Shown piece after piece: positions 3,289 to 33,079 of a stretch of DNA of 33,830 nucleotides (the first letter of the stretch is position 1; each line of letters opens with the position of its first letter). A model generated the notes under the pieces. It made no database searches. It was not told the origin of the DNA and saw only the letters and a list, made by a program, of their open reading frames with translations. This stretch comes from a virus, in the IMG/VR virus record IMGVR_UViG_3300011252_000588, positions 1 through 33,830 of that record; one strand, 5' to 3'. The translations under genes were made by a program, and so were the position numbers.

Positions 3289-3930
3289 CTACTTCAAGTC
3301 CTTAATTGCATCGCAGATTCCATACTTCTTTGCTTCCAATGCGCTCAACCAAACATCATGAGCAGGAAGCAACACCTTACGGATATTCTTTTCACTCATT
3401 CCTGTACACTTCTTATAATGATCAAGAATCATCTTTGCAGTTAGATCAAACGCTCTTACCGCAGTAACAAGTTCATGTTCTTTGCCCCACTTACCCCAAG
3501 AATACTGATGAGACAAGATTGAAGTGTTTGGAGTAAGAGTTCGATAACCCTTCTCTCCAGACATAAAGATCATCAAAGCTGCACTAGATACTTCACCTAA
3601 ACCAATTGTATGAATAGGAATACCAGAACCTCGCATAGTATCAATAAGCGCGAATGCATCTGTCACGCTACCCCCACCAGAATTCAAAATTAAAGTTAAA
3701 TGTTCTGGTTGGTTTGGTGAAAGATTGTTCCTAAAAATCCAATCAATTACTGGTCGAACGGAATCATTCTTAATATCATCCATTAGCATAAAGATGCCAG
3801 CCTTTTCTAAACCGTCACCTTCAGAACCAAACAAAGCACCAAGAACTTCGTTCGCAGAGTTTTGAGCTTCTAAAGCATTATCAAACGATTCAGACTCAAT
3901 TTCATCATTAATATTTTCATTATTTGTCAT
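3289..3930 (-). CDS. clpP: ClpP-like serine protease
   Basis: This is a 213-residue ClpP/crotonase-fold protease. The catalytic triad appears complete: Ser116 in GEVSSAALM (the GxAAS position of ClpP), His141 in SILSHQYS and Asp192 in HDVWLSALEAKKYG. The oxyanion stretch NSGGGSVTD is present too. I chose the ATG at 3930 because it overlaps the polymerase stop in an ATGA junction and follows AGAGAGG. An extension to 3972 would lie inside the polymerase gene without such a site. The acidic N-terminal 40 residues have no obvious ClpP counterpart. No ClpX/A ATPase is nearby, so it may use host chaperones, assemble with host ClpP, or act alone. Confidence 0.88.
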   Translation of the reverse strand: MTNNENINDEIESESFDNALEAQNSANEVLGALFGSEGDGLEKAGIFMLMDDIKNDSVRPVIDWIFRNNLSPNQPEHLTLILNSGGGSVTDAFALIDTMRGSGIPIHTIGLGEVSSAALMIFMSGEKGYRTLTPNTSILSHQYSWGKWGKEHELVTAVRAFDLTAKMILDHYKKCTGMSEKNIRKVLLPAHDVWLSALEAKKYGICDAIKDLK

Positions 3931-6494
3931 ACAAAAAACCTCTCTAGCGTGCTGGTCTTTTCGGATTTCCAACCCATACAGTCCAACAACACTTTTACGG
4001 GATCAAGAAATGATTTAACAAACTGCATATCATAGTTAATATATGTATTCAACCCAAATTCCTCTGGCAAATTATTTGAAATAGAAATAACACTTTCGCC
4101 ACAAGGATTTGGTTTGTTGAGATATAAAAACTTAATTTTGTCTCCATCACGAATTTCTTGATACATCAAATTTAAATTATTTTCCTTGACTAACCGATTG
4201 TAAATAATAGAACCTTTCACATGAATGGGTGTGCCTTTTATGTATTTGTTGTTTTCCTCATACTTTTTAATTCCATTCACACCACGAGGAAAAGCAACAT
4301 CCTCTGCGGAAAGACCGAAAAACTCTTCTTTAAATTCTGCAATATATTTTTGAATTTGTTTTTCAGACCCGTTCATCATAATAGACAAAGTGCCTTTAAT
4401 CTTGTCGCGACATACTTCTGGGGTCGATGACTTAACCGCTTCTAGTCCCATCACCTTTAACTTAGGTTCGTTGTAAGAAACTCCTTCATTATCATACACG
4501 TTTAAAACGTATCTCTTTTTGGCAGTCCACAATCCAGTCGAAGCAATTGCTTCTCTTTTCATAACCATCTTTTGGTCATACGCATTCATATATTCAGCAA
4601 GGTCAGTATAGCACTTGTCGATGTAAGGTTCAATCTTTTTGCTGCATACTTCGTCTAAAAACCTAACTATCTTTTGTTTATCTGAATCATCAGCAAATAC
4701 ATTTTGAACTAGTTTGTCGAGAACAACATAGATACTATCTGTGTCGCTTGCGATTACATAATCAACATTTTCAGTGGACAAAACATTATTCAAATATTCA
4801 TTCATTCTCTGTTCGATCCAACGAATAGAAAGCTGACCAGCTTTGGTAACAGCCTCCGCAATACGAAGATCATAGAATCTGAAGTATTGATTTCCCAATG
4901 CACCATACGCACTATTCAATTGAACTTTTCTAGCAAGCTGATCATTATTATGTTTGGAAATCAAATTCAAATACTTTTGTTTTTCATATCCAGTTGAACC
5001 TTCTGCTAATTGCTGACATTCGAGCATCTTCTTCTTTGAAGACTTTCGTTTGTTATAAAGATCCTCCAGAATCTCAGGAAGGAATCCTTGAGAGTCTCGC
5101 TTGAAGAACATAATGTTTGGTGTGACCGTAAGATCATCCCGCTTTAACAGTGATGTGTCAAAATCCTTTTCAATAAGTTTATCATAACTGGCAATGGTAT
5201 CCCAAGGTCCACGCTTCAGAGATTCAACAAGATCGTTGTTTGCTTGACTTTCTGTCACCAACTTTTCAGGACTCAAATTATACTGCATCATCAAATGAGG
5301 ATACAATGAATTCAAATCAAAAGAAACAACCCACTTATGAAATCCCACATGAGGCTCTTTAACATATGCACCTTCAAACTGTTCACTCTTTGAAGTGATC
5401 TTTCTTGGGGGATAGACTCGATTAGTTTTGCGAAGATGGTGATAACAAAGACTTTCCCACATTCTCACCTGTGAGAAAACATCATCCAAATTAACCTTTG
5501 CAGAATACGCAAGAGCAGCAGCCATCTCAATCAACTTCATCTTATCTTCAAGCCGACCAACAAGCTCAACATCCTTCACATTATATTCAATGAACTTATG
5601 ATAATCCCGCTTGTATAATGTATGCAAGCTGCCAAATTCTGAATAAGAAAGTTTGCTCTCGCCCAACTCAACGTTCGCAATATAATCTAGACGATAACTC
5701 TCTCGATTAACATATGTAAACTTTTTGTAAAGCTCTAGATAATCAAGAACACAAATACCACTCAAGGTAAGACGAGTCTCTTCTCGACCAAAGCCAGAAT
5801 GAAACTTTCTAAAAGAAACAAATTTCCACGGTGAAAGAGTCTTTGCAGTCTTCTCGTCAATTACCTTATTGATTCTATTGTAGAGATAAGGAATATCAAA
5901 TCCATTTACATTCCATCCAGTAACGATATCAGGAGAAAACTCATTCCAAGTATAAAGAAAACGATCAAGAAGATCAATCTCATTATCACAAGAAACATAG
6001 ATGATATCTCTTTCTGCAAGGGTTTCCTGTATTTTACAACCATCAGGCTCCCCAAAACCAAATACATAAAATGCTTCATTGAACTTCACCGCAATTGAAA
6101 TTACTGGAGAGGCAGCAAACTCTGCATGAGGAAAACCTTCATCAGAGGCAACCTCAATATCAATATTCGCAACCATGATCTTTCCAAAATCATATTCGAT
6201 TTCTTCGGGATACTCATCACCAATAAATGTAGTATCAAACTTGTCGAAGCCGTAAAGATTGAAACCTTCAACGTCTTTATAACCCTCAATGCGGGATCTG
6301 GCTTCTTTTAATCCACCAAAAGAAATTGGAGAAACATACTTACCATCAATGGTAGTGTACTTCGTAATTTTCTTTGAAGAAGTAAATAGTGTTGGACTGT
6401 ATCGAACCTTCTTAGAGAATCGTTCTCCTAGATCATCCACGCCACGAAGGAAAATCTGGTTTCCAACAGCTCTTACGTTTGTATAAAATGCCAT
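3927..6494 (-). CDS. 43: DNA polymerase, family B (T4 gp43 type)
   Basis: This is the replicative polymerase with 3'-5' proofreading. The exonuclease motifs are intact: D112/E114 in ANIDIEVAS, D200 in GWNVNGFDIPY and D308 in YNVKDVELV. Polymerase motifs are also intact: motif A SFDLNSLYPHLM with D393, motif B KVQLNSAYGALGNQ near 523-535, and motif C ASDTDSIY with D584 and D586. The length of 855 residues is close to T4 gp43 (898), and no intein or split is seen. The extreme C-terminus, STLERFFV, ends in two aromatics like the clamp-binding tails of gp43 proteins. AGGA lies 7 bases before the ATG. It is not next to regA as in T4, because an amidase, hsp20 and a DUF3293-like gene lie between. 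Confidence 0.97.
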   Translation of the reverse strand: MAFYTNVRAVGNQIFLRGVDDLGERFSKKVRYSPTLFTSSKKITKYTTIDGKYVSPISFGGLKEARSRIEGYKDVEGFNLYGFDKFDTTFIGDEYPEEIEYDFGKIMVANIDIEVASDEGFPHAEFAASPVISIAVKFNEAFYVFGFGEPDGCKIQETLAERDIIYVSCDNEIDLLDRFLYTWNEFSPDIVTGWNVNGFDIPYLYNRINKVIDEKTAKTLSPWKFVSFRKFHSGFGREETRLTLSGICVLDYLELYKKFTYVNRESYRLDYIANVELGESKLSYSEFGSLHTLYKRDYHKFIEYNVKDVELVGRLEDKMKLIEMAAALAYSAKVNLDDVFSQVRMWESLCYHHLRKTNRVYPPRKITSKSEQFEGAYVKEPHVGFHKWVVSFDLNSLYPHLMMQYNLSPEKLVTESQANNDLVESLKRGPWDTIASYDKLIEKDFDTSLLKRDDLTVTPNIMFFKRDSQGFLPEILEDLYNKRKSSKKKMLECQQLAEGSTGYEKQKYLNLISKHNNDQLARKVQLNSAYGALGNQYFRFYDLRIAEAVTKAGQLSIRWIEQRMNEYLNNVLSTENVDYVIASDTDSIYVVLDKLVQNVFADDSDKQKIVRFLDEVCSKKIEPYIDKCYTDLAEYMNAYDQKMVMKREAIASTGLWTAKKRYVLNVYDNEGVSYNEPKLKVMGLEAVKSSTPEVCRDKIKGTLSIMMNGSEKQIQKYIAEFKEEFFGLSAEDVAFPRGVNGIKKYEENNKYIKGTPIHVKGSIIYNRLVKENNLNLMYQEIRDGDKIKFLYLNKPNPCGESVISISNNLPEEFGLNTYINYDMQFVKSFLDPVKVLLDCMGWKSEKTSTLERFFV

Positions 6495-6503
6495 AATATA
6501 ATC

Positions 6504-7103
6504 CTATAATTTTTCGATTTCATCTCCCAATTCACGAGTGCGAACAATTAAATCATTCACACCTTCTTCGATACCCATCAATTCCTCAAACAATTTAATA
6601 AATTCTTTTTTGGATTCAACAATTCCAGCATTGAGTTTAGCAACTTCATCAGCATAATCATACAAAGAAGATGTCCGCTGAATCACCCCCAAATCAGTTA
6701 GATTTAGAATTTCCTTGTAATCAAAGACAGGACATTCCTTATCAGAAACTTCGCAATGACCATGAAAGGTTACATCAGGAATCCGGTCATCAATTTGTTC
6801 ACACAAATTTCTTAACGACTCAAACTGTTCTTGAGTAAAGTCGCCTACCGCAAGACCCGAAAGACAAATTGCAATCGTTCCTGTATTGTGACCTCTCTGT
6901 GCTGCTGGAGTAATTTCAACATCCCTTCCTCGGTGAACAGTTCCATCAAAAGTGATGTAATAGGTATAACCAATATCACTCCAACCATTCTTGAGGTGCC
7001 AGCTACGAATCACTTCAACATCGTCATGCGCCGCTAATCCTGATGCAGAACAATGAATAAAAACACGATCAATATCTCTATGGGGCTTACTAAAAATAAA
7101 CAT
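6504..7103 (-). CDS. N-acetylmuramoyl-L-alanine amidase (T7 lysozyme-like endolysin)
   Basis: This amidase cleaves the amide bond between MurNAc and the peptide stem of peptidoglycan and is the likely endolysin. The spacing of key residues matches T7 lysozyme closely: zinc ligands H17, H116 and C124, with catalytic Y47 and K122 in HGHCEVSDKECPVFD. The amidase domain covers about residues 10-135. It is followed by about 60 residues predicted to be helical or coiled coil (YADEVAKLNAGIVESKKEF), which T7 lysozyme lacks. There is no signal peptide, so it would need a holin to reach the wall. AGGAG lies 7 bases before the ATG. It sits between polymerase and hsp20, downstream of the hsp20 terminator. 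Confidence 0.9.
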   Translation of the reverse strand: MFIFSKPHRDIDRVFIHCSASGLAAHDDVEVIRSWHLKNGWSDIGYTYYITFDGTVHRGRDVEITPAAQRGHNTGTIAICLSGLAVGDFTQEQFESLRNLCEQIDDRIPDVTFHGHCEVSDKECPVFDYKEILNLTDLGVIQRTSSLYDYADEVAKLNAGIVESKKEFIKLFEELMGIEEGVNDLIVRTRELGDEIEKL

Positions 7104-20016: not shown

Positions 20017-20053
20017 AAAAAAGGGTCACGAGGAGCGTTTCCCCCATGACCCT
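20017..20053 (-). terminator. intrinsic terminator ending the late curli-cyclase operon
   Basis: On the minus strand, AGGGTCA (20053-20047) pairs with TGACCCT (20028-20022) and is followed by TTTTTT. The loop is about 18 bases and could extend the stem with one mismatch. This is the first good terminator downstream of the long minus-strand gene run that begins at 28345 and ends with the holin-like gene at 20444. Confidence 0.85.
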
Positions 20054-20316: not shown

Positions 20317-20443
20317 CTGCAACATCTCCTGCATTTATTTTGTGCGTACTATCACGCCTAACATGCGTAGAATCATATGATCACCACAAAGGTATATAGC
20401 AGATTTATTCAAATTTTTGTGTGAACATTTGGTTGCATTATCA

Positions 20444-20788
20444 TTATTTATTCTTGTCACCCAAATCCTGAGACTTTCCTATCCTACCCCATTCTTGTTC
20501 TAGATTATGAGCAGTCCTCATTACGATCTCGATTCTCGTAATGCTATCTTCCAGCGATCTAATTCTATCAATCAATTTTACCAATATGCCATATTGTTCT
20601 TGCTGGGTACTATTTAATTTAGCCATCAATTCTTGCTGTGTCTCTGATAAACCATCTTGAACTTCTTTGATCTCTTGTGTTAGATTATTCATCAACCATT
20701 TTAGAATTGCCCAAAAACCAAATGCAACTCCTATTGCTGCTGTAATTGGAAACCCTACTTCTGCTATCAATATGTATATGTCTTCCAT
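20444..20788 (-). CDS. holin-like membrane protein with coiled-coil tail
   Basis: This is a 114-residue protein with one N-terminal hydrophobic helix (about residues 5-33, EVGFPITAAIGVAFGFWAIL) followed by a long amphipathic coiled coil (about 36-90, LTQEIKEVQDGLSETQQEL) and a polar tail. The 'vGFPI' N-terminus plus short helical tail resembles the BhlA/UviB group of holin-like proteins, though the tail here is longer. It starts two bases after the cyclase stop and is the last gene before the terminator at 20053. It may be a holin, or a membrane partner of the cyclase. Confidence 0.7.
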   Translation of the reverse strand: MEDIYILIAEVGFPITAAIGVAFGFWAILKWLMNNLTQEIKEVQDGLSETQQELMAKLNSTQQEQYGILVKLIDRIRSLEDSITRIEIVMRTAHNLEQEWGRIGKSQDLGDKNK

Positions 20789-20789
20789 T

Positions 20790-22604
20790 TCATTCTCCTA
20801 CAGAATATATCATTACTTCTCTTGTTTGTCCTTTTACTGTTATCGAATCAACATACTCATAGTCAAACAAATTTTCAGTTTCGGCTACTGTAGCTTCACC
20901 CACAATGAGAGTAGCATTATAATTTTTGCTATTACTCTCTAATCTAGACGCCAAGTTTACGGCATCTCCTAGAACACTATAATCAAACCTCTGATTACTT
21001 CCCATGTTCCCTACAACACAATCCCCAGTATTGATACCAATTCCAATTTTGATCTCATCAGGAATTGTTTTATTTAAATTTTTCAATTCTTCGATCATTT
21101 CTAGTGCAGATACAACTGCCATCTCGGCATGATTGTCAACCCCTAAAGGCGCATTCCAGAATGCCATAATACAATCTCCCATATATTTATCAATAGTACC
21201 TTTGTTTTGCATAATGATCTCAGTCATCGGTGTCAAAAACGAATTAATCAGCTCGGTCAGTGCTATAGGATCGTCTTTGTATTTTTCTGAGATAGGTGTG
21301 AAACCCCTGATATCACAGAACAAGAAGGTCATACAACGTCGTTCTCCACCAAGTTTCAAAATAGATGGGTCTTTTTGTATTTTCTTGACTAAATCGGGAG
21401 AGAGGTAGGTTCCAAACTGATTCTTGATTTCTTGCTTCATTTTATACTGACGTATAAAGTTATTGAATGTAGAATGGGTGAATACAATAAACCCTGCCAG
21501 CAATGGGTATGACGGGTCAAGTAGCAACGAGTAGGTATCGAACACATAGAAAGATCCATAGAGCATTCCAACGAATACAGCCAGCACACTGAATATAACA
21601 AAATAGATATTGATGGTGTATACAAATACTATAATCAAAATCATCAATACAATTAAAGTTAATATCTCGTAACTCGCTGCGTAGTCAGGGCGGACAATAT
21701 TCTCGCCATTGATAATTGTTTGCAATACACTCGCCTGAATATATTGAGGAGTCTTCAATCCTCTTGGCGTAGGTAGAATTGGAACCAGACCTTCCGAGTC
21801 TGCACCCATTCCAATGATAACCGTCTTGCCATTGAAGTCTGGAAAGTCTTCAATAAATTCGTATTCATTAAATAAATGTTTTTGATTAATCCAGATACGA
21901 CCATGCTCGTCTGTGGGTATCGTGGGAAATGATGGAATACGAATCGCTTGGATTCCTGTTTCGCCTACCTTCATTTGGTAGCTAGGATCACCTGCTGTTA
22001 CTCGTAGGATCTCAAGTGGCACCGATGGATATAGTATGTCGTCTACTTGCACTACCATTGGGATTCGTCGAGTAAGGTTATCGACTTCAGGAGAACCGGC
22101 TGCTATACCATGACCGTCCGCAATTAATTGTGGTGTGTTTACCAATAGCCCATTATATTGAAATACAAAATCTAATGGGTCTTCGCCTATAATCGCAATG
22201 CCAACATGTGGTCCTTTGATACCAAGCATTCTACCACTCACTGTTTGTGATAGCACAACTCCATTATCCTTCATCCATGATGCAAACACCTCGTCACCAC
22301 CATAGCGATCCTCTTCTGAGAAGATCATGGTAAAGGCAATGATGCCTGCACCCTTGTCTCGTATGTCGCTAATAATTTGTGCGAAGTGTGTTCGGGGCCA
22401 CGGGAACTGTCCAAGTTCTTTGAGTGAATCATATCCGATATTGATTAGTGCAATATCTTCACTTTTGTCCACTTGCTGGCGTAGCTGTAGAGCATCAAAG
22501 GTTTTTAACCTGAGCATCTGTATTGGTATTGGGTCTTGTACTCTGATATAAAATAGACCAATGGCTACCAGTAGCACAACCCATATGGACGTTATAATCT
22601 TCAT
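20790..22604 (-). CDS. CHASE2-domain class III nucleotide cyclase
   Basis: This 604-residue inner-membrane enzyme should make cyclic nucleotide in the cytoplasm. TM1 is at about 5-20, then a periplasmic CHASE2 sensor at about 30-305 (ALINIGYDSLKELGQFPWPR; KTVIIGMGAD; GLKTPQYIQASVLQTIING), three TM helices at about 312-377, a linker, and a catalytic domain at about 418-604. Catalytic residues are present: metal ligands D431 (FCDIRGF) and D477 (YMGDCIMAFW), K473, N550 and R554 (GDAVNLASRLE). Position 543, the substrate-selecting Asp in class IIIa enzymes, is Ser, as in class IIIb, some of which respond to bicarbonate. The start overlaps the stop of a 41-residue membrane ORF (ATGA). A full-length cyclase is highly unusual in a phage. 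Confidence 0.95.
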   Translation of the reverse strand: MKIITSIWVVLLVAIGLFYIRVQDPIPIQMLRLKTFDALQLRQQVDKSEDIALINIGYDSLKELGQFPWPRTHFAQIISDIRDKGAGIIAFTMIFSEEDRYGGDEVFASWMKDNGVVLSQTVSGRMLGIKGPHVGIAIIGEDPLDFVFQYNGLLVNTPQLIADGHGIAAGSPEVDNLTRRIPMVVQVDDILYPSVPLEILRVTAGDPSYQMKVGETGIQAIRIPSFPTIPTDEHGRIWINQKHLFNEYEFIEDFPDFNGKTVIIGMGADSEGLVPILPTPRGLKTPQYIQASVLQTIINGENIVRPDYAASYEILTLIVLMILIIVFVYTINIYFVIFSVLAVFVGMLYGSFYVFDTYSLLLDPSYPLLAGFIVFTHSTFNNFIRQYKMKQEIKNQFGTYLSPDLVKKIQKDPSILKLGGERRCMTFLFCDIRGFTPISEKYKDDPIALTELINSFLTPMTEIIMQNKGTIDKYMGDCIMAFWNAPLGVDNHAEMAVVSALEMIEELKNLNKTIPDEIKIGIGINTGDCVVGNMGSNQRFDYSVLGDAVNLASRLESNSKNYNATLIVGEATVAETENLFDYEYVDSITVKGQTREVMIYSVGE

Positions 22605-22726
22605 TCAGCATATTGCTCCAGTAGAATGAATGTGCCTAAACAAAATGAAAACCATCCGCCAAACAGCCAATCTGGAATGATCATCATAAAAAAAATAATC
22701 GTATATATGGATAACAAATTTCGCAT
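22601..22726 (-). CDS. 41-residue hydrophobic peptide between fecR-like gene and cyclase
   Basis: A short frame runs from the ATG at 22726 to a TGA that overlaps the cyclase ATG (ATGA, 22604-22601). The peptide is hydrophobic, with a first segment at about 4-18 (LLSIYTIIFFMMIIP) and a second at about 20-36 (WLFGGWFSFCLGTFILL), and ends QYAE. Its start is 7 bases after the FecR-domain gene stop. The precise stop/start coupling on one side and close spacing on the other make it a likely real gene that fills the only gap in the operon. It could be a small regulator or subunit of the cyclase. No family is known to me, and its ribosome site is weak. Confidence 0.6.
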   Translation of the reverse strand: MRNLLSIYTIIFFMMIIPDWLFGGWFSFCLGTFILLEQYAE

Positions 22727-22732
22727 AAAATC

Positions 22733-23785
22733 TCACTGTTCTTGAGTAATCTGTATATTACTTTCTCCTGATCCAACAATAACGGTAACAGGCTCTCCAT
22801 CTTTTAGGGTGACAGAATAGCTGCCTGTCTTATCTAGCTTCAGACGAACTCTATTGTTCACCTTTCTTTCAAATATAACTTGACGATCTGTGACAATGGT
22901 ATTAATCTTCGTAACCGGATCTAAACCAAGGGCTGTGCCTTTGATTGTGAACGTCTGACTTTTTTCTTTCTCTTTTTTAGTAATTTTTTTGATAACATTC
23001 TGAAGTTCGTTTCGATCATCTTCGCGAAAATCTTCTTCTACTGTCTCTCTATCTTCCTCTTCTTCATTAAAGACATCATCATCCAATTCGTTTTGATCAA
23101 GAAACGTATTGTCTTCATATTCCTGATCCTCTTCTATGATCTCTACATCTTCTTCAGCTTCTTCAATAAAAAGCTCGGACATTAATCTATTATCTATTTC
23201 GAGAATGACTGGCTCTGTTGGAGATGATTCGGCTGAAGAAACCATTGTAGCTTGAAAAGCCTCGTTCAACGTTACGCTATCCACAAGACTTTCTACTACA
23301 ACTTCACCAACTACTCCATCAGCATCAGGCAACAGGACTACTAGACTACGACCAACCTCATCTACAGTCGTCGTGAAGTCTGTGCCGCGAATACCAATCG
23401 TCGCAGTCGGCGTGCGTATTTTAATTTTATTCTTATCTACTAAACCCAGCTTACCCGTGGCAAAGCGCGCAGTACCCGCAGCTACCTTGAATGCCATCTT
23501 TGATTTCTTTGGGTTGGGATCAAATACAAACTCATCAATAACCAGCTTGGAGTTTGCAGATAGCTTTACTGTAGAACCATCATCAAATGTAATCTCAAGT
23601 TTACCATTGTCCGTGCGAACATTATCATAACTATGAATGTCCAAAGAAAGAGAAGCGACGAGGCGTCCACCGCTTTTACGGATAACCTCGCCGCTTCCTT
23701 CGTGCGTCGTTATTCTGCCAATATCTGCGTATGCACTACCTTGGCTGAATAAGAGGAAACTGAGTATTAGTTTGATTAATCTCAA
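22733..23785 (-). CDS. secreted FecR-domain protein
   Basis: This is a 350-residue protein with an N-terminal signal peptide (LIKLILSFLLFSQGSAYA, cleavage about residue 20) and a FecR domain at about 30-150: SYDNVRTDNGKLEITFDDGS, KLSANSKLVI and the hallmark RTPTATIGIRGTDF. Then comes a very acidic stretch (about 205-260, EEAEEDVEIIEEDQEYED) and a basic to beta-rich C-terminus (about 275-350). FecR domains act as periplasmic signal sensors or scaffolds. This one lacks a TM anchor apart from the signal peptide. The likely start is TTG at 23785, with GGGG six bases upstream. It overlaps the curlin-like gene by 50 bases and lies just before the 41-residue peptide and the CHASE2 cyclase, so a sensor-cyclase pair is the natural reading. 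Confidence 0.88.
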   Translation of the reverse strand: MRLIKLILSFLLFSQGSAYADIGRITTHEGSGEVIRKSGGRLVASLSLDIHSYDNVRTDNGKLEITFDDGSTVKLSANSKLVIDEFVFDPNPKKSKMAFKVAAGTARFATGKLGLVDKNKIKIRTPTATIGIRGTDFTTTVDEVGRSLVVLLPDADGVVGEVVVESLVDSVTLNEAFQATMVSSAESSPTEPVILEIDNRLMSELFIEEAEEDVEIIEEDQEYEDNTFLDQNELDDDVFNEEEEDRETVEEDFREDDRNELQNVIKKITKKEKEKSQTFTIKGTALGLDPVTKINTIVTDRQVIFERKVNNRVRLKLDKTGSYSVTLKDGEPVTVIVGSGESNIQITQEQ

Positions 23786-24446
23786 TTGTTGCCCCGTTCA
23801 TTGTCCCTTCTAGATTAATAACAGAAGACTGCATATCATTCGCTTGCAAAATATCAATCTGATTATCACTACCATTCAATGCCATAGTAATACTATTATC
23901 CGACCAACCAAGCTGGGTCGTATTAATTGTATTCAAATCACCGTCAAGATTGGTATTCAATACTGCGGTGTCTGCATCAATAATACTTGTCATTTGATTT
24001 TCATTACCAGTAATAGTGATATCAACATCTGCACCAATAGCACTATTAGTAAGCCCTGTAATTAATGCAAGAGTATTTGTGTCGCCAGTCACACTAACAT
24101 CTACAGTTGAATCTGAAACCTCACCTGTTTCACCCATGTTGACATCAAACTGATTGGAATTTCCAATCATTTCAATATTAGCAATGACACCATCTGCCTT
24201 GACTATCTGACCGTCAAGTGAATTGTTGTCACCAGTTTGATCAATATTGACATCCATATTGTCTCCACCCAAAGTGAAGTCTGTGTCAATACCTCCAACG
24301 TTATTAGTATCCCCTGTCTGGTTGACTACCAAATTCAAAGTATCACCGACTTGATCAATATATACATCATTAGATTGCCCATGTGCAGCAAAAGTCGCGA
24401 ACATAGTCATAATAAAGGTAGTCAGAAATGGAATATTCTTTTTCAT
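23736..24446 (-). CDS. secreted curlin-repeat protein
   Basis: This is a 236-residue protein with a signal peptide (FLTTFIMTMFATFAAHG, cleavage about residue 23). The mature part is built of degenerate curlin-type repeats every 20-30 residues: YIDQVGDTLN, VVNQTGDTNN, NIDQTGDNNS, IEMIGNSNQ, VSVTGDTNT, ITITGNENQ, NLDGDLNT, ALNGSDNQ. The core is [Q/x]-x-G-[D/N]-x-N, as in CsgA/CsgB amyloid repeats, but the Gln is kept only in some units. It is acidic and rich in Asp, Asn and Thr. The AAGGAG ribosome site is strong. It is immediately downstream of csgG, so it is the likely exported substrate of that pore. Whether it forms amyloid fibres cannot be told from sequence. Confidence 0.88.
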   Translation of the reverse strand: MKKNIPFLTTFIMTMFATFAAHGQSNDVYIDQVGDTLNLVVNQTGDTNNVGGIDTDFTLGGDNMDVNIDQTGDNNSLDGQIVKADGVIANIEMIGNSNQFDVNMGETGEVSDSTVDVSVTGDTNTLALITGLTNSAIGADVDITITGNENQMTSIIDADTAVLNTNLDGDLNTINTTQLGWSDNSITMALNGSDNQIDILQANDMQSSVINLEGTMNGATIEINQTNTQFPLIQPR

Positions 24447-24458
24447 TTCTTTCTCCTT

Positions 24459-25238
24459 CTATTCTCTGTAACTCCAGAGATTTGTGTTAACACCTTCCTC
24501 GATCATAACGAGAACTGCCTGTTCAATTGCTGCACGCACAGCGTAACTCACAGGTTCGTTTTCCGTCACTCCAGTCTCTATCTCTAGAGCATTTGTATCC
24601 ATATCTAAAAACTTAATCGTGTCAATACCTGCTTTGATACTGAGTATCGTCTTCAGCGTATTAACCGATAATAAAACCTCTCCAGTTTGTGTACTAACTG
24701 CTCGTAGAGAGATTGTGACTTGATCTTTTCTCCATGATGTGCTTGCACCAATACCAAAATATCTCGCACCCATACCTCCTGTAAATATATTGGAGTCATA
24801 TGAGATGATTCCGCCTTCTAAAATAATTCCAGCATATAATAGAGGGCGCAACTTCTGTTGTGTTTCCTTTGAGTATGATTCTCTCTGGTTTCTGATTAGC
24901 TGACGCTCCTGAATAAGATTGTCCAAGAATGTTCGTTCAACTACAGTAAACCATGTTCCTCCACCGGCATCTTTAAGAGCTTTGATTAACCAGTTACCTG
25001 AGCCTTGAGAAACCGCAGTGGAAAAGAGCGCAAGATTTCCTTTTGATTTACGCTGCCCTGTTAAATCATAAAAATCATAAACCGCTACAACGACCTTCCG
25101 TTGAGGCGGTTTAACCTGAGCTAATCTGTCTATTGCAATTAGTTCTATTACAGGTTCATTTTTAAAGTATTTCGTGGTGGAGCATGAGGTTGTCAGAAGT
25201 AGTAGTGTGATTGCAAATATAAGTTTGCCTTGTATCAA
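24459..25238 (-). CDS. csgG: CsgG, outer-membrane curli secretion lipoprotein
   Basis: CsgG forms the nonameric outer-membrane channel that exports curli subunits. This 259-residue protein has a lipoprotein signal (LLLLTTSC, Cys19) and close matches to E. coli CsgG in KVVVAVYDFYDLTGQ, FSTAVSQGS, WFTVVERTFLDNLIQER, ILEGGIISYDSNI, GGMGARYFGIGAST and LLSVNTLKTILS. It ends near the CsgG LWD position (NLWSYRE) and lacks the last 25 or so residues of E. coli CsgG (277). The start is TTG at 25238, overlapping the csgF stop in a TTGA junction. The lipobox -1 residue is Ser, which is acceptable but not ideal. Confidence 0.95.
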   Translation of the reverse strand: MIQGKLIFAITLLLLTTSCSTTKYFKNEPVIELIAIDRLAQVKPPQRKVVVAVYDFYDLTGQRKSKGNLALFSTAVSQGSGNWLIKALKDAGGGTWFTVVERTFLDNLIQERQLIRNQRESYSKETQQKLRPLLYAGIILEGGIISYDSNIFTGGMGARYFGIGASTSWRKDQVTISLRAVSTQTGEVLLSVNTLKTILSIKAGIDTIKFLDMDTNALEIETGVTENEPVSYAVRAAIEQAVLVMIEEGVNTNLWSYRE

Positions 25239-25687
25239 ATTCCAAAATCTCCAATGGGAATTACTATAGAAGTCGAATTTCCATTGGGGTCTGTGGTTGT
25301 CAGAGTAATCATATCTCCGTCATTACTATATGTGATCAATGTTCCTTCTAATTCAATCTGTCCACTCTCTGAAGCCTCTTCCCCAAATAGTTGGTTAACA
25401 AGCTCACGGCTAAGTTGGCTGTATACTCGGCTCTCAAAGTTACGAAGAAATTTATTCAGGGTACTGTTGTACTCATCACGTTCAGCAGCAGCCAGTTCAG
25501 CTTCTCTCTCAGCTTTCAGTTTATCTTTTCGTGATTTTTCTTGATTCTCAATGGTAAGCATGTGTGCAGAATAACCGATACCATTAAAACTGGGATTCTT
25601 GAATATGTGTACAAGCTCATCCGAATTCGCATCTGATGCAAACATAACAATTCCTATGAGAAATGCGCCGGATAAAACGAGCTTCAT
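25235..25687 (-). CDS. csgF: CsgF, curli assembly factor
   Basis: CsgF caps the CsgG pore on the cell surface and couples secretion to nucleation. This 150-residue protein has a signal peptide (VLSGAFLIGIVMFASDANS), then the CsgF signature near the mature N-terminus, ELVHIFKNPSFNG (E. coli FQFRNPNFGG), which is the part that enters the CsgG channel. A helical charged region (KSRKDKLKAEREAELAAAER) and a beta-rich end (TTTDPNGNSTSIVIPI; E. coli TDRKTGQTSTIQVS) follow. It is the first curli gene of the module, starting two bases after a virion-type gene and overlapping csgG by four bases. Confidence 0.92.
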   Translation of the reverse strand: MKLVLSGAFLIGIVMFASDANSDELVHIFKNPSFNGIGYSAHMLTIENQEKSRKDKLKAEREAELAAAERDEYNSTLNKFLRNFESRVYSQLSRELVNQLFGEEASESGQIELEGTLITYSNDGDMITLTTTDPNGNSTSIVIPIGDFGI

Positions 25688-25688
25688 A

Positions 25689-26090
25689 TTACTTAATCCT
25701 CTTCTTGATTATATTTCCAAACTCTGGATATACTGAAAGATGCTCGGTCAGACTTCGGATATCCTTTGATACATTCAATAGAACTCCTTCATCTAACCGA
25801 TCATCTTTAATTGAATTTAAAAGAGCAGTAAGGACTTTAGCATTATCCACGAGATCCGAATGGGTTTCTTTGATGGTTTTCTGTTTTGGAGCAACACCAC
25901 CACGCATTTCAATAAGCGAACCACTGATAGAATTCAAAAGATCTTTGGTAATTTTTCCACCACCAACTGAGCCTACGTCTTTATACCGAGAGCGATTTTC
26001 TTTGAAGTTTTCATCTTCAGCCGTTAGTCTGTGTGCATTAACTGGCTCCTCGCCCTTCATCATTCGGAATGTATCTTCTAAAGATGCCAT
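25689..26090 (-). CDS. conserved phage protein, helical
   Basis: This is a 133-residue, mostly helical, soluble protein with a Gly/Lys turn in the middle (KDVGSVGGGKITKD). The N-terminus MASLEDTFRMMKG is of a kind I associate with T4-like phages of aquatic bacteria. Function is unknown. It lies in the late minus-strand unit with virion-type genes, starts one base after the stop of the 52-residue gene upstream, and its stop is one base from csgF. Confidence 0.7.
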   Translation of the reverse strand: MASLEDTFRMMKGEEPVNAHRLTAEDENFKENRSRYKDVGSVGGGKITKDLLNSISGSLIEMRGGVAPKQKTIKETHSDLVDNAKVLTALLNSIKDDRLDEGVLLNVSKDIRSLTEHLSVYPEFGNIIKKRIK

Positions 26091-26091
26091 G

Positions 26092-26250
26092 TTAGTCCTC
26101 TACTTCATCAAGGTGATCAGACCACTCATCCCCATATTTTTGTTTCAACTTCGCAAGAGTGTCTTCAATTTCTACTCCAACGTTTTCTGGTTCATCATCA
26201 ATCTGACCAAAAATTTCCTGTAGTGGTTTTGCTGTCTTTGAAATACTCAT
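26092..26250 (-). CDS. 52-residue acidic protein
   Basis: A short gene fills the gap between two longer ones: ATG at 26250, GAGGAG seven bases upstream, TAA one base before the next ATG. The product is helical and acidic (KPLQEIFGQIDDEP; TLAKLKQKYGDEW; DHLDEVED). The ribosome site and tight packing support it as real. No family is recognised. Confidence 0.7.
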   Translation of the reverse strand: MSISKTAKPLQEIFGQIDDEPENVGVEIEDTLAKLKQKYGDEWSDHLDEVED

Positions 26251-26252
26251 AA

Positions 26253-26732
26253 TCAAGCTCCTCTCGTAATTTGTAATACTCTTTGAATCTGTCTTTCGAT
26301 AATCTCTTTTCTATTAGGCCAGTAAATATATTCTTGTGCTAGTGATTCTGGCTTTATAAAGTTGACCAATAGAGGAAGAACTAATTTCTCCAGTTCTTTC
26401 ATTTTACTTTTAGTTCTCTCCGAAACCTTGCTTTCAATTTGATCTTCTGTTGCTTCGGTGTCATCAACTCTATCCAAAAGTGTGTCTAATTTCCCCTCAA
26501 TATTTAGTTCATCGAAATTTAGAAGAGCGGTAAGACCTTCAAGTGTTGACTTAATGTCGTCTATTTTTGCATCTAAAGAATCTAGTCCATCTATTTTTGT
26601 TGAAATAGTCTCTACAGTTTGTGCGGTAACAGACACATCGGCATTGGATGGTTGTTCATCAACAAATGAAATACCCAGATCCATATCATAGTCGTCAAGC
26701 TGAAAACCTTTAAGAAAATCTTGATCCGACAT
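26253..26732 (-). CDS. conserved phage protein with YWPNR motif
   Basis: This is a 159-residue protein with an acidic N-terminus, a long heptad-like middle (about 40-85, ISTKIDGLDSLDAKIDDIKS) likely to form a coiled coil, and a conserved C-terminus (LAQEYIYWPNRKEIIERQIQ). The C-terminal pattern occurs in T4-like phages near structural genes in my memory, but its role is not known. It lies in the late unit, two bases before the 52-residue gene. Confidence 0.72.
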   Translation of the reverse strand: MSDQDFLKGFQLDDYDMDLGISFVDEQPSNADVSVTAQTVETISTKIDGLDSLDAKIDDIKSTLEGLTALLNFDELNIEGKLDTLLDRVDDTEATEDQIESKVSERTKSKMKELEKLVLPLLVNFIKPESLAQEYIYWPNRKEIIERQIQRVLQITRGA

Positions 26733-26735
26733 AAA

Positions 26736-27482
26736 CTATCCCTTCATTAAATCTGTGACAGTTTTACCCTTTTCCCAAAACTTACATGACCAATAGCGAG
26801 CCTTCCATTTTGGACCCGGATCATCATCACAACTGTGTCTGTCCCTAAAAGCCTTTCGTCGTGCAGGATCATCTCTTTTAATTTCCATATTTGCATCTCC
26901 GAAATGAACCTTCACGACATTTCCTTTGTCGTTTTTAACATACACCATAGATTTCTTTTTGGGATTGTCTGAACGTGTTGGGTTATTCAGTTTAACCTTC
27001 CGTCCCTGATACTCAGCATCTTCGATAATTTCTTCAATCCTACCCATTAGTTTATCATGAAATTTGATTGCATAGGCATCGGCTTCTTTTTTATTGTCGA
27101 ATGTCTTTAAGGATTTTCCCTTCACATTCATAACAAAAAACTTTCCACCCTTCTCCACAACATGTTCTGTTGGGTCCATTTTCTCTTCAATGCCAGCACA
27201 ATCATCACAACAATAATCTTCTCTAATTCTAGGTTCTTTTCTATTATAGTTTTTGGATACCACAGAAAGATTTTTTGGATCGTTGTTTAAGGGGTTGTTA
27301 TCTTTATGGTGAACATCCTTATCTTCAAAATCCTCGTCAGTCATTCGCTTTTTAATAATTCTGCGTGCAGAATTTCTAGCAGAACGTCTTTCGATTTGTT
27401 CTGGCTTAGAATGATAATTCTTATATTCTTTTTTATAGTCTCTCTCTTTTAGCTGACTATAAAGATCCTTAAACTTCTTCAT
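26736..27482 (-). CDS. HNH-type nuclease fused to a conserved virion-associated domain
   Basis: This is a 248-residue protein. Residues 50-85 form an HNH-like centre (DVHHKDNNPLNNDPKNLSVV) followed by a cysteine cluster (YCCDDCAG). The C-terminal 70 residues (VYVKNDKGNVVKVHFGDANM, DPARRKAFRDRHSC, KARYWSCKFW) are a domain I recall from phage structural or head-region proteins. The N-terminus MKKFKDLYSQLKE resembles a T4 capsid-targeting peptide with an LxE cleavage-like site at 11-13. It could be a packaged nuclease, a homing-type HNH captured into a structural gene, or a DNA-binding protein. Confidence 0.75.
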   Translation of the reverse strand: MKKFKDLYSQLKERDYKKEYKNYHSKPEQIERRSARNSARRIIKKRMTDEDFEDKDVHHKDNNPLNNDPKNLSVVSKNYNRKEPRIREDYCCDDCAGIEEKMDPTEHVVEKGGKFFVMNVKGKSLKTFDNKKEADAYAIKFHDKLMGRIEEIIEDAEYQGRKVKLNNPTRSDNPKKKSMVYVKNDKGNVVKVHFGDANMEIKRDDPARRKAFRDRHSCDDDPGPKWKARYWSCKFWEKGKTVTDLMKG

Positions 27483-27495
27483 GGATGTCTCTTTT

Positions 27496-27870
27496 CTAGT
27501 AGAGTCCTACCAAGAACGTTGCTGTGGTATTCTGTGATGTGTCACCTTGTGTTATATTGTATGTGTATACACCCTTCATTCTTACGGGAAGAACTGTTCC
27601 AGCAACAACATTTCGGAAAAACACATTAGCTTCATCAACCACCGTGTTTCCATAAGCGACCTTGCAAAATACATTTCCAGCAGAACCCACATAAAGACCA
27701 CGAATAGTCGTTGGCAAATCGCTGTGATTTTCATCAGCGGGACTCGTTATAAACTGCATTTCAGCAATGTTAAACGCTTTACCCGCAGGAGAATCTAACT
27801 CTGTATTTTTATTTCGATGCTCGTCGTGAGGAAGAATCGGTGTCGGTTCATCTTTCGGATACTGTCCCAT
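27496..27870 (-). CDS. small virion-type beta protein
   Basis: This is a 124-residue, beta-rich protein with the pattern RGLYVGSAGNVFCKVAYGN ... FFRNVVAGTVLPVRMKGVY. The same pattern is widespread in short phage decoration or fibre-like proteins. It starts two bases before the end of the preceding gene's stop region, with a clear GGAGAA ribosome site. Structural role is likely, exact position in the virion unknown. Confidence 0.7.
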   Translation of the reverse strand: MGQYPKDEPTPILPHDEHRNKNTELDSPAGKAFNIAEMQFITSPADENHSDLPTTIRGLYVGSAGNVFCKVAYGNTVVDEANVFFRNVVAGTVLPVRMKGVYTYNITQGDTSQNTTATFLVGLY

Positions 27871-28435: not shown

Positions 28436-28447
28436 TATTTATAAATA
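28436..28447. promoter_or_regulatory. palindromic divergent late promoter
   Basis: TATTTATAAATA is a perfect 12-base palindrome. It contains the T4 late-promoter octamer TATAAATA on the plus strand (28440-28447, 16 bases before the ATG at 28463) and again on the minus strand (28443-28436, about 91 bases before the ATG at 28345). One site can thus fire late transcription in both directions. Phage gp55-type sigma and the clamp would be needed. Gene 45 is in this window. Confidence 0.82.
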
Positions 28448-28462
28448 TATTAGGGGGAAGTT

Positions 28463-29515
28463 ATGAAATCTTTTAAAGAAGCAACATACAAAGATTCTGG
28501 TTTGGGCAAATGGTTCTCACAATCCGCAGGCGGAAAGCCGGGATGGGATCGTTATAATACGAGTGGGAAACGAGCTGGGAAATGCGGAGATGCCAAAGAT
28601 GGTGATCCATACTCTGTATGTTTATCTAAAGAAAAGGCTGATAAACTTGGACCCAAGAATATTGCATCTTTTGTTAGGCGAAAGAGAAAAGCCCAAAAAG
28701 ATTCTGGTAGAGATGATAAAGGCGATGGACCCGCCGGAAAGAAACCAATCATGGTAAAAACTGGTATTACAGATAAAGATCCAAATAAACGTGGAATTCA
28801 AGAAAAGAATGAGCCTGACAATCCAAAGCTGTGGGATTCAATCCTAAAGAAGACTCGCGCCAAGTTTGATGTATATCCATCTGCTTATGCTAATGCTTGG
28901 GCTTCCAAAGAATATAAGAAGCAGGGTGGAACATGGCGAAAAGTTGCTGAAGCTAAAATCGAGCAGGTTGAAGTCACCGGAGATGACATTGCAACCATTT
29001 TGGAATTTGTAATGATTCTTGATGAGGGGAATGAAGTGATCCTCTCTGAAGCACGAGCAGAGGATCTTAAATCACTGGTTGGTAGTGTCTCAAAGAAACT
29101 TGGATTTGCATCGAGTGGTAGAAAAAATCTATTGTCCCTACTTTCATCCATCAGCAAAAACGCAGCATTGACAGTTGTATATGCAATTCAAGCTCAGGCT
29201 GGTCGTGAGGGTGCAAAAGAAAAACTTCAGAATGTGCTTCAAACATCAAACGTTAAAGCTGAACTTCTGGACTTAGTTGTTCGCGCAGATGTTTTGACTC
29301 TTCATTTGATTAGTGGTCCTATTCATATGATTGATGCTTTGACTGGATATGAAATAGCAGATAAAATCAGAGAAAAGGCAGAAGTTGGTGGCAACAAGGT
29401 TAAAGATGCTGTCGAATTAATTCAAAAGTCTGCTCAATCTCTTTCTGACAATCAAAAGACTCGTCGGGTCAAAAAGAGTTTGAATACAATCAGGAAAGTT
29501 TTCACTCTTAAATAA
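28463..29515 (+). CDS. virion-associated protein with DUF5872-like segment
   Basis: This is a 350-residue basic protein. Residues 10-75 (GLGKWFSQSAGGKPGWDRYN, AGKCGDAKDGDPY, VCLSKEKADKLGP) form a Cys-containing region. Residues 122-160 (LWDSILKKTRAKFDVYPSAY, ASKEYKKQGGTWRK) match the DUF5872-like pattern seen in phages. The remaining 190 residues are helical, without a motif I know. The N-terminus MKSFKEATY resembles a T4 capsid-targeting peptide, but no LxE cleavage site follows. A perfect late promoter precedes it. It is one of three plus-strand genes among minus-strand late genes. Confidence 0.78.
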   Translation: MKSFKEATYKDSGLGKWFSQSAGGKPGWDRYNTSGKRAGKCGDAKDGDPYSVCLSKEKADKLGPKNIASFVRRKRKAQKDSGRDDKGDGPAGKKPIMVKTGITDKDPNKRGIQEKNEPDNPKLWDSILKKTRAKFDVYPSAYANAWASKEYKKQGGTWRKVAEAKIEQVEVTGDDIATILEFVMILDEGNEVILSEARAEDLKSLVGSVSKKLGFASSGRKNLLSLLSSISKNAALTVVYAIQAQAGREGAKEKLQNVLQTSNVKAELLDLVVRADVLTLHLISGPIHMIDALTGYEIADKIREKAEVGGNKVKDAVELIQKSAQSLSDNQKTRRVKKSLNTIRKVFTLK

Positions 29516-32362: not shown

Positions 32363-33079
32363 ATGAAAACATATAAAGACTTAAAAGAATTCTTGCAATT
32401 GTCTGAGGGTGTAAACGACCCCGGAATTTTTAAGATCGTATTTACTGCTGGTGGGCCCGGATCAGGAAAATCCTTTATTGCAGGAAAGACTGGTCTAACT
32501 TCGATGGGTCTTCGCGCAGTTAATTCTGACGATATCTTTGAGAAGAAACTTGAGGCTGCGTTTGAGCGCAGTATGGATGATATTGGTCCAGAGGATATCA
32601 TGTCGCCCAAGGGTCAAGAAATTCGTGGCGCAGCAAAAAAACTTACAGGAAAAAAACAAGATATTTTGGTTGATGGTCGAATCGGTCTTCTGATTGATGG
32701 AACCGGAAAAGATGTTGCCAAGATCAAAAAACAAAAAGCTGGTTTTGAGCGACTCGGCTATGAGTGCATGATGATCTTCATTAACACTACACTAGACACA
32801 TCAATCTCGCGAGACAAGATGAGATCAAGAACCGTTGGTGCTGACGCTGTGACTGATATGTGGTCTGAGGTTCAAAATAACATTGGTGCTTTCCAGAGAA
32901 TGTTTGGTAATAATAAATTTATTATTGTGGACAACACCGAGGGTAAAGACTTCAAAAAAGAAACCATGACTGCATATAAAACTGCAATAAAGTTTATTGG
33001 TAAGCCCCCGAAGACTCGGGCTGCGAAACGATGGATTCAAAATGAAATGAGCAGAAGAAATATTACAAAGCGGAAGTAA
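32363..33079 (+). CDS. P-loop kinase, zeta-toxin/polynucleotide-kinase-like
   Basis: This is a 238-residue P-loop protein: Walker A TAGGPGSGKSFIAGK (motif at 30-37), then RAVNSDDIFE (an Asp placed like the substrate-binding Asp of zeta/PNK kinases), LVDGRIGLLIDGTGKD and a lid-like region with Arg/Lys (SISRDKMRSRTVG). The C-terminus is basic (KRWIQNEMSRRNITKRK). The substrate is unknown. The N-terminus MKTYKDLKEF ... LSE|G strongly resembles the T4 capsid-targeting peptide (MKTYQEFIAE) with an LxE site at residues 13-15, so the enzyme may be packaged in the head. Confidence 0.85.
   Translation: MKTYKDLKEFLQLSEGVNDPGIFKIVFTAGGPGSGKSFIAGKTGLTSMGLRAVNSDDIFEKKLEAAFERSMDDIGPEDIMSPKGQEIRGAAKKLTGKKQDILVDGRIGLLIDGTGKDVAKIKKQKAGFERLGYECMMIFINTTLDTSISRDKMRSRTVGADAVTDMWSEVQNNIGAFQRMFGNNKFIIVDNTEGKDFKKETMTAYKTAIKFIGKPPKTRAAKRWIQNEMSRRNITKRK

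Follow-up and report, generated by a model that had tools for sequence, protein, structure and literature searches.

A viral locus in which genes for a curli-type secretion pore stand beside genes for a FecR-domain protein and a membrane cyclase raises the question of whether these genes form a single unit and what such a unit would do for a phage. The window considered here, the whole analysed stretch of 33,830 bases from an IMG/VR virus record of environmental-metagenome origin, carries a T4-like gene set (gp41 helicase, UvsX, gp43 polymerase, clamp loader and clamp), further T4-like genes for a RegA-like translation repressor, Hsp20, PhoH and CobS/CobT-like proteins, and five tRNAs. Its DNA polymerase is ~50% identical to cyanophage DNA polymerases, and a ClpP-like protease gene (3289-3972) adjoins the polymerase gene. 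Two plus-strand genes at 28463-29515 and 32363-33079 encode products that begin with MKSFKEA and MKTYKDL, respectively, N-termini that resemble the peptides directing T4 internal proteins to the capsid; the second of these products is a P-loop kinase-like protein.

The preliminary description reported five genes in a row, from csgF to a CHASE2 cyclase, and open reading frames and domain searches agree with it, all five running in one direction from 25687 to 20790 (Table 1). Overlaps of 4-50 bases or short gaps were said to join them, which holds for most junctions: csgF and csgG overlap by 4 bases, csgG and the curlin gene lie 12 bases apart, and the curlin gene and fecR overlap by 50. The gap between fecR and the cyclase gene is 128 bases, longer than implied. 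The terminator placed at the end of the run is real, with its paired stem and T run, but a further gene lies between it and the cyclase gene. The label "virion-type" for the flanking genes is weak upstream, where PHROGs gave one tail-fibre match, at 27496-27870. Rfam searches near the module returned tRNAs only and no riboswitch. The late-promoter-like sequence was rejected as a late promoter, as its 4 matches in the window do not exceed chance (mean 1.8).

Table 1. Features of the curli-type locus and its surroundings in the window
Feature	Position	Strand	Evidence or remark
csgF-like	25235..25687	-	PF10614 E 9e-18; signal peptide; conserved N-terminal FxNPxFxG motif
csgG-like outer-membrane channel	24459..25238	-	PF03783 E 1e-54; probable lipobox (TTSC)
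curlin-repeat protein (cur1), signal peptide	23736..24446	-	viral profile matches curlin 8c50; AF2 model all-beta
FecR-domain protein, signal peptide	22733..23785	-	PF04773 E 1e-13; AF2 model; C-terminal motif
CHASE2 - transmembrane - class III adenylyl cyclase	20790..22604	-	PF05226 E 6e-33; PF00211 (Guanylate_cyc) E 1e-25
small one-transmembrane-helix and coiled-coil protein, sixth cassette member	20444..20788	-	phrog_18771 E 1e-11
intrinsic terminator	20022..20053	-	13-pair stem, 7 GC, T run; sequence conserved in relative L286
exchanged block, csgF through small membrane protein	20444..25688	-	blastn vs L286
T4-type late-promoter-like TATAAATA, candidate only	28436..28443	-	upstream of co-directional run 28345 to 20444

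A module of this kind is already known, and the pelagiphage set has been published. The full set, including FecR, an adenylate cyclase and a "histidine kinase", was described in pelagiphages and found expressed in metatranscriptomes (Wittmers 2022, PMC9599517), and phage curli genes are discussed, with the notion of "sibling capture", by Zaragoza-Solas 2020 (PMC7029224). Buchholz 2022 (PMC9004378) put forward a pinholin or secretin role and saw no clumping in Melnitz infections. Gene order is identical in Pelagibacter phage HTVC008M and Methylophilales phage Melnitz. The preliminary description mentioned csgF and csgG in marine myophages; it missed that the entire set had been published (PMC9599517), and it missed the sixth gene. 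The published podovirus genome MW574966 shows no annotated curli genes over the 50 kb examined. A 3-kb contig binned as Candidatus Pelagibacter (L084:1-3066) carries a phage-type csgF-csgG-curlin-fecR run and is probably phage sequence in a MAG, and a CsgG encoded on a 1.5-kb "Salmonella phage" record (OR851715.1:301-942) may be bacterial sequence.

The limits of the unit are defined by comparison with phages related through the flanks, which have the same neighbour genes and lack the module; CsgG was not found on five such records, all of them fragments. In the closest relative, L286, CobS, PhoH and the clamp are 94%, 99% and 95% identical to those of the window. Homology by blastn ends at window position 25689, where the gene preceding csgF has its stop codon, and restarts at 20434, just past the stop codon of the gene at 20444-20788. 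The interval in L286 spans 432 bases and holds one 120-aa gene, whose product has a coiled coil and a C-terminal transmembrane helix; L284 and L297 carry a similar gene. Six genes, including 20444-20788, have been exchanged for one small membrane-protein gene, an observation that is new here. The exact breaks at stop codons on both sides point to a cassette swap and define the boundaries of the unit. An assembly chimera of two contigs would also account for a module present at this site in one contig only and missing from flank relatives, and the preliminary description had named such a chimera as grounds for dismissing its proposal. This explanation is highly improbable, and we reject it on the stop-codon boundaries and on the relatives, in which the flanks are continuous. 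All genes are co-directional, the module genes are phage-type and deep-branching, and the sixth gene is part of the same cassette in other loci.

Linkage across IMG/VR viral contigs was assessed in three scans that took the best 80 relatives of each query, a sample that is not random, and only contigs with enough flank were tested. Among these testable contigs, csgG occurs with csgF in 135/135, with the curlin gene in 164/164, with fecR in 140/140 and with the cyclase gene in 98/99. Counted from the cyclase, the partner is fecR in 92 of 93 contigs and csgG in 66 of 66. Linkage is near-absolute and far beyond chance. Pairwise distances of csgF, csgG, fecR and the cyclase correlate over 100 loci (Mantel r 0.60-0.86, compared with at most 0.14 in 500 permutations), and the window copies of all four are distant from every other locus. 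The refuting condition named in the preliminary description, genes scattered in related phages, is answered in favour of the module: related phages with csgG carry fecR and the cyclase gene linked. Its view of the set as one module is strongly supported by invariant linkage, correlated divergence and block transfer. A second curlin gene lies between fecR and the cyclase gene in 79 of 168 loci, and the window represents the type that lacks it. L228:10536-12290 (-) is the sole locus with the cyclase gene inverted relative to the other module genes.

The gene at 20444-20788 belongs to this unit. A profile of its product and the Melnitz homologue defines a family whose members are small (median 95 aa) and combine a single N-terminal transmembrane helix with a coiled coil. 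The family is present in 123/123 testable module contigs: 113 have a member at most 1.5 kb upstream of csgF, and the other 10 have it solely on the downstream side of the cyclase. Two copies occur in 139 of 172 loci. When the family itself served as the query, 68 loci had csg genes, four had room for them but none, and seven were too short. Among 50,697 phage records, the member from L240 matched only Melnitz and HTVC008M at E 1e-3. The sixth gene is an overlooked invariant cassette member, reported here for the first time. It also bears on the published annotation, in which one or two histidine kinases precede the pelagiphage module (PMC9599517), as small transmembrane coiled-coil genes sit in that very place. 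Because HATPase_c was detected in all 14 control genomes and in none of 30 module-carrying records, we think that these small genes are the reported "histidine kinase".

The company kept by this family brings in a different explanation of the module. Its four csg-free loci have a phage structural or lysis gene context; in one of them, L305, a 3TM holin and an M15 endolysin come after the family member. Members adjoin lysozyme in L189 and L173, a kind of neighbour that the gene in the window does not have, and the small membrane protein shows weak similarity to holin PHROGs. Extending the pinholin or secretin idea of Buchholz 2022 (PMC9004378), one may read the module as a lysis-timing device in which a CsgG/CsgF envelope pore, a holin-like small protein and the cyclase set the moment of lysis. 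The small coiled-coil protein with a C-terminal transmembrane helix that the block replaces may likewise be a lysis accessory. We regard lysis timing as unlikely on balance, and as a serious rival on account of the holin-like sixth gene and its lysis neighbours in some phages. However, CsgG is an outer-membrane and not an inner-membrane channel, and the curlin gene, kept in every contig tested, would be superfluous for a pore alone. In addition, the holin matches are weak, and the window amidase (6504-7103) is far from the module.

The csgG product matches CsgG structures in the PDB (3x2r, 4uv3, 6si7) at E about 2e-47 to 6e-47. The curlin-repeat substrate of the preliminary description stands on a family profile: the window protein alone does not reach the Pfam Curlin_rpt threshold, but a profile of 54 viral homologues matches the solved curlin 8c50 (E 9e-11). 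Its repeats are mostly 22-27 aa apart, and its AF2 model has a pLDDT of 89.6. Foldseek comparison of this model with the PDB gave weak, non-significant matches only, many of them to beta-helical proteins. A domain scan of the ten proteins at 20444-27870, with the rest of the window scanned by PHROGs only, gave no CsgE. The second curlin of HTVC008M (L002:10638-11963) has a PA14 domain (E 3e-6) followed by curlin repeats (PF07012 E 5e-8), a layout suggesting that a binding domain may be displayed on a curlin fibre in that phage. The csgG gene at L207:952-1802 is split over two ORFs by a frameshift or sequencing error.

The FecR protein, a sensor in the preliminary description, is not one of the FecR/PupR anti-sigma type: a signal peptide is present and no transmembrane helix is found. 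Such a helix after the signal peptide is missing in 144/151 distinct viral FecR sequences. AlphaFold models the FecR domain (21-182) and the C-terminal beta domain (278-348) with confidence, and an acidic linker (207-277) with low confidence. A curlin-type strand closes 148 of the 151 viral sequences, compared with 17 of 2238 background ORFs; for a stricter form the counts are 129/151 and 0/2238. The spacing N-x-I-x-I-x-Q at the FecR end is that of curlin repeats. Profile-profile comparison of the C-terminal domain with curlin aligned 10 columns at 4% probability, which is not significant, and the likeness is accordingly one of motif and of a single strand, with whole-domain homology unsupported. 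Foldseek matches the model to the anti-sigma proteins 4m0h and PupR 6ovk (surface-signalling domain), and also to an antifreeze adhesin, in the domain that anchors it to the cell surface (5ix9; TMt 0.76, rmsd 1.0 over 62 columns). The near-constant terminal strand speaks for a role as fibre anchor and not for one in iron regulation. Import of nutrients or cofactors for phage growth through the pore, with FecR as a mark of iron-linked regulation, was proposed in PMC7029224 and PMC9599517 and would suit a wide channel and the role of FecR families in iron uptake elsewhere. We consider it very unlikely, since iron regulators have a transmembrane helix and a cytoplasmic part that the phage protein does not, neither a TonB receptor nor a sigma factor is seen among the annotated window genes, and curlin and CsgF are always retained.

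The cyclase appears competent. Residues D431, D477, K473, D541, N550 and R554 are all present in the window protein, the two metal-binding Asp, the Asn and the Arg are intact in 158/163 distinct viral cyclases, and the Lys/Asp pair typical of adenylyl cyclases occurs in 145 of the 163. The adenine-specifying residues and phmmer matches to bacterial adenylyl cyclases, such as CyaB 3r5g, suggest cAMP as the product. The Melnitz cyclase (L003:19826-21877) has lost the catalytic Asn and the adenine-contacting Asp, as has a small group of other viral cyclases, so some phages can do without the readout. In 142 genomes from the class to which the Alphaproteobacteria MAG of L086 belongs, a listed FecR gene lies within 5 kb of 37 of the 143 listed CHASE2 genes, on the same strand in 27 cases, against a rough random expectation of about one or fewer. 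Among the matches listed, none of eight bacterial csgF loci from two classes has a CHASE2 gene on its contig. No FecR protein of 15 bacterial FecR-CHASE2 loci has the phage C-terminal domain. No bacterial donor operon with the whole module was found: the hits of the genome scan were canonical curli loci (L085-L087), fragments and the short Pelagibacter MAG contig that resembles phage sequence. We infer that the phage unit unites a curli part and a FecR-CHASE2 signalling part, newly linked through the FecR tail.

Our leading reading, held tentatively and at somewhat less than even confidence, is that the six genes form a horizontally exchanged cassette, which would build a curli-type fibre on the surface of the infected cell and report its own assembly through FecR and CHASE2 to cAMP. 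By homology, CsgG and CsgF would form the outer-membrane export pore. The curlin-repeat protein would reach the periplasm by Sec, leave through CsgG and form the fibre. FecR would be held in the periplasm by its folded FecR domain while its curlin-type strand joins the fibre, which would make it an anchor or nucleator in the place of CsgB, as sequence and model suggest. Bacterial gene neighbourhoods suggest that the FecR domain partners CHASE2 in the inner-membrane cyclase, an arrangement by which the state of the fibre or envelope may be converted to cAMP by an enzyme with the sequence marks of catalytic competence. The small membrane coiled-coil protein would belong to the unit; in some phages members of its family neighbour lysis genes, and the module is on that ground probably made late. 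The likely benefit would be an altered surface during a long infection, for example by excluding other phages or aggregating cells.

Invariant linkage, correlated divergence, the exact swap, the curlin identity and the HTVC008M PA14 curlin count in favour of this reading. So do the FecR strand, the likeness to 5ix9 and 6ovk, the bacterial FecR-CHASE2 pairing and the intact cyclases. The missing CsgE, the one-strand FecR tail, the lack of clumping with Melnitz (PMC9004378), the lost Melnitz cyclase residues and the fact that no cAMP receptor was identified count against it. The secreted fibre and periplasm-to-cyclic-nucleotide report of the preliminary description are plausible from the exported curlin, the FecR tail, the cyclase residues and the bacterial pairing. 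A bolder version, which we hold to be distinctly unlikely, casts FecR as a bridge whose strand, threaded through CsgG, caps or nucleates the fibre while its folded domain, kept in the periplasm in the manner of adhesin anchoring domains, contacts CHASE2, with fibre pull, completion or contact raising a cAMP signal that delays or triggers lysis. If true, this bridge would be a phage-built sensor of the infected cell's outside. The predicted contacts between FecR tail and curlin and between FecR and CHASE2 could help to tell a fibre model from a lysis model. Curli modules occur widely among ocean phages. The window copy reveals the boundaries of the unit, which was swapped cleanly, brings to light an invariant member that had been overlooked and calls the published histidine-kinase and iron-regulator labels into question.

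With the curli of bacteria (type VIII secretion; csgBAC/csgDEFG in E. coli) the cassette has CsgG, CsgF and a curlin-repeat substrate in common, and it differs in the added FecR protein and CHASE2 cyclase and in that CsgE was not found. The FecR domain and fold are common to FecR/PupR cell-surface-signalling regulators, but the phage protein has a signal peptide instead of a cytoplasmic anti-sigma domain and transmembrane helix, and it ends in a curlin-type strand. Bacterial CHASE2 adenylyl cyclases with FecR neighbours show the same domain order and frequent FecR adjacency; the FecR neighbours examined lack the curlin tail domain, and those loci yielded no curli genes. With the pelagiphage T8SS module of HTVC008M and Melnitz the window shares the csgF-csgG-curlin-fecR-cyclase order, a single direction, an exported curlin and the phage setting. 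In contrast to that module, the window copy has no second curlin gene between fecR and cyclase, carries its small membrane protein after the cyclase and not before csgF, adjoins cobT-like genes, and encodes proteins whose identity to their counterparts in the two phages is only about 31-52%.
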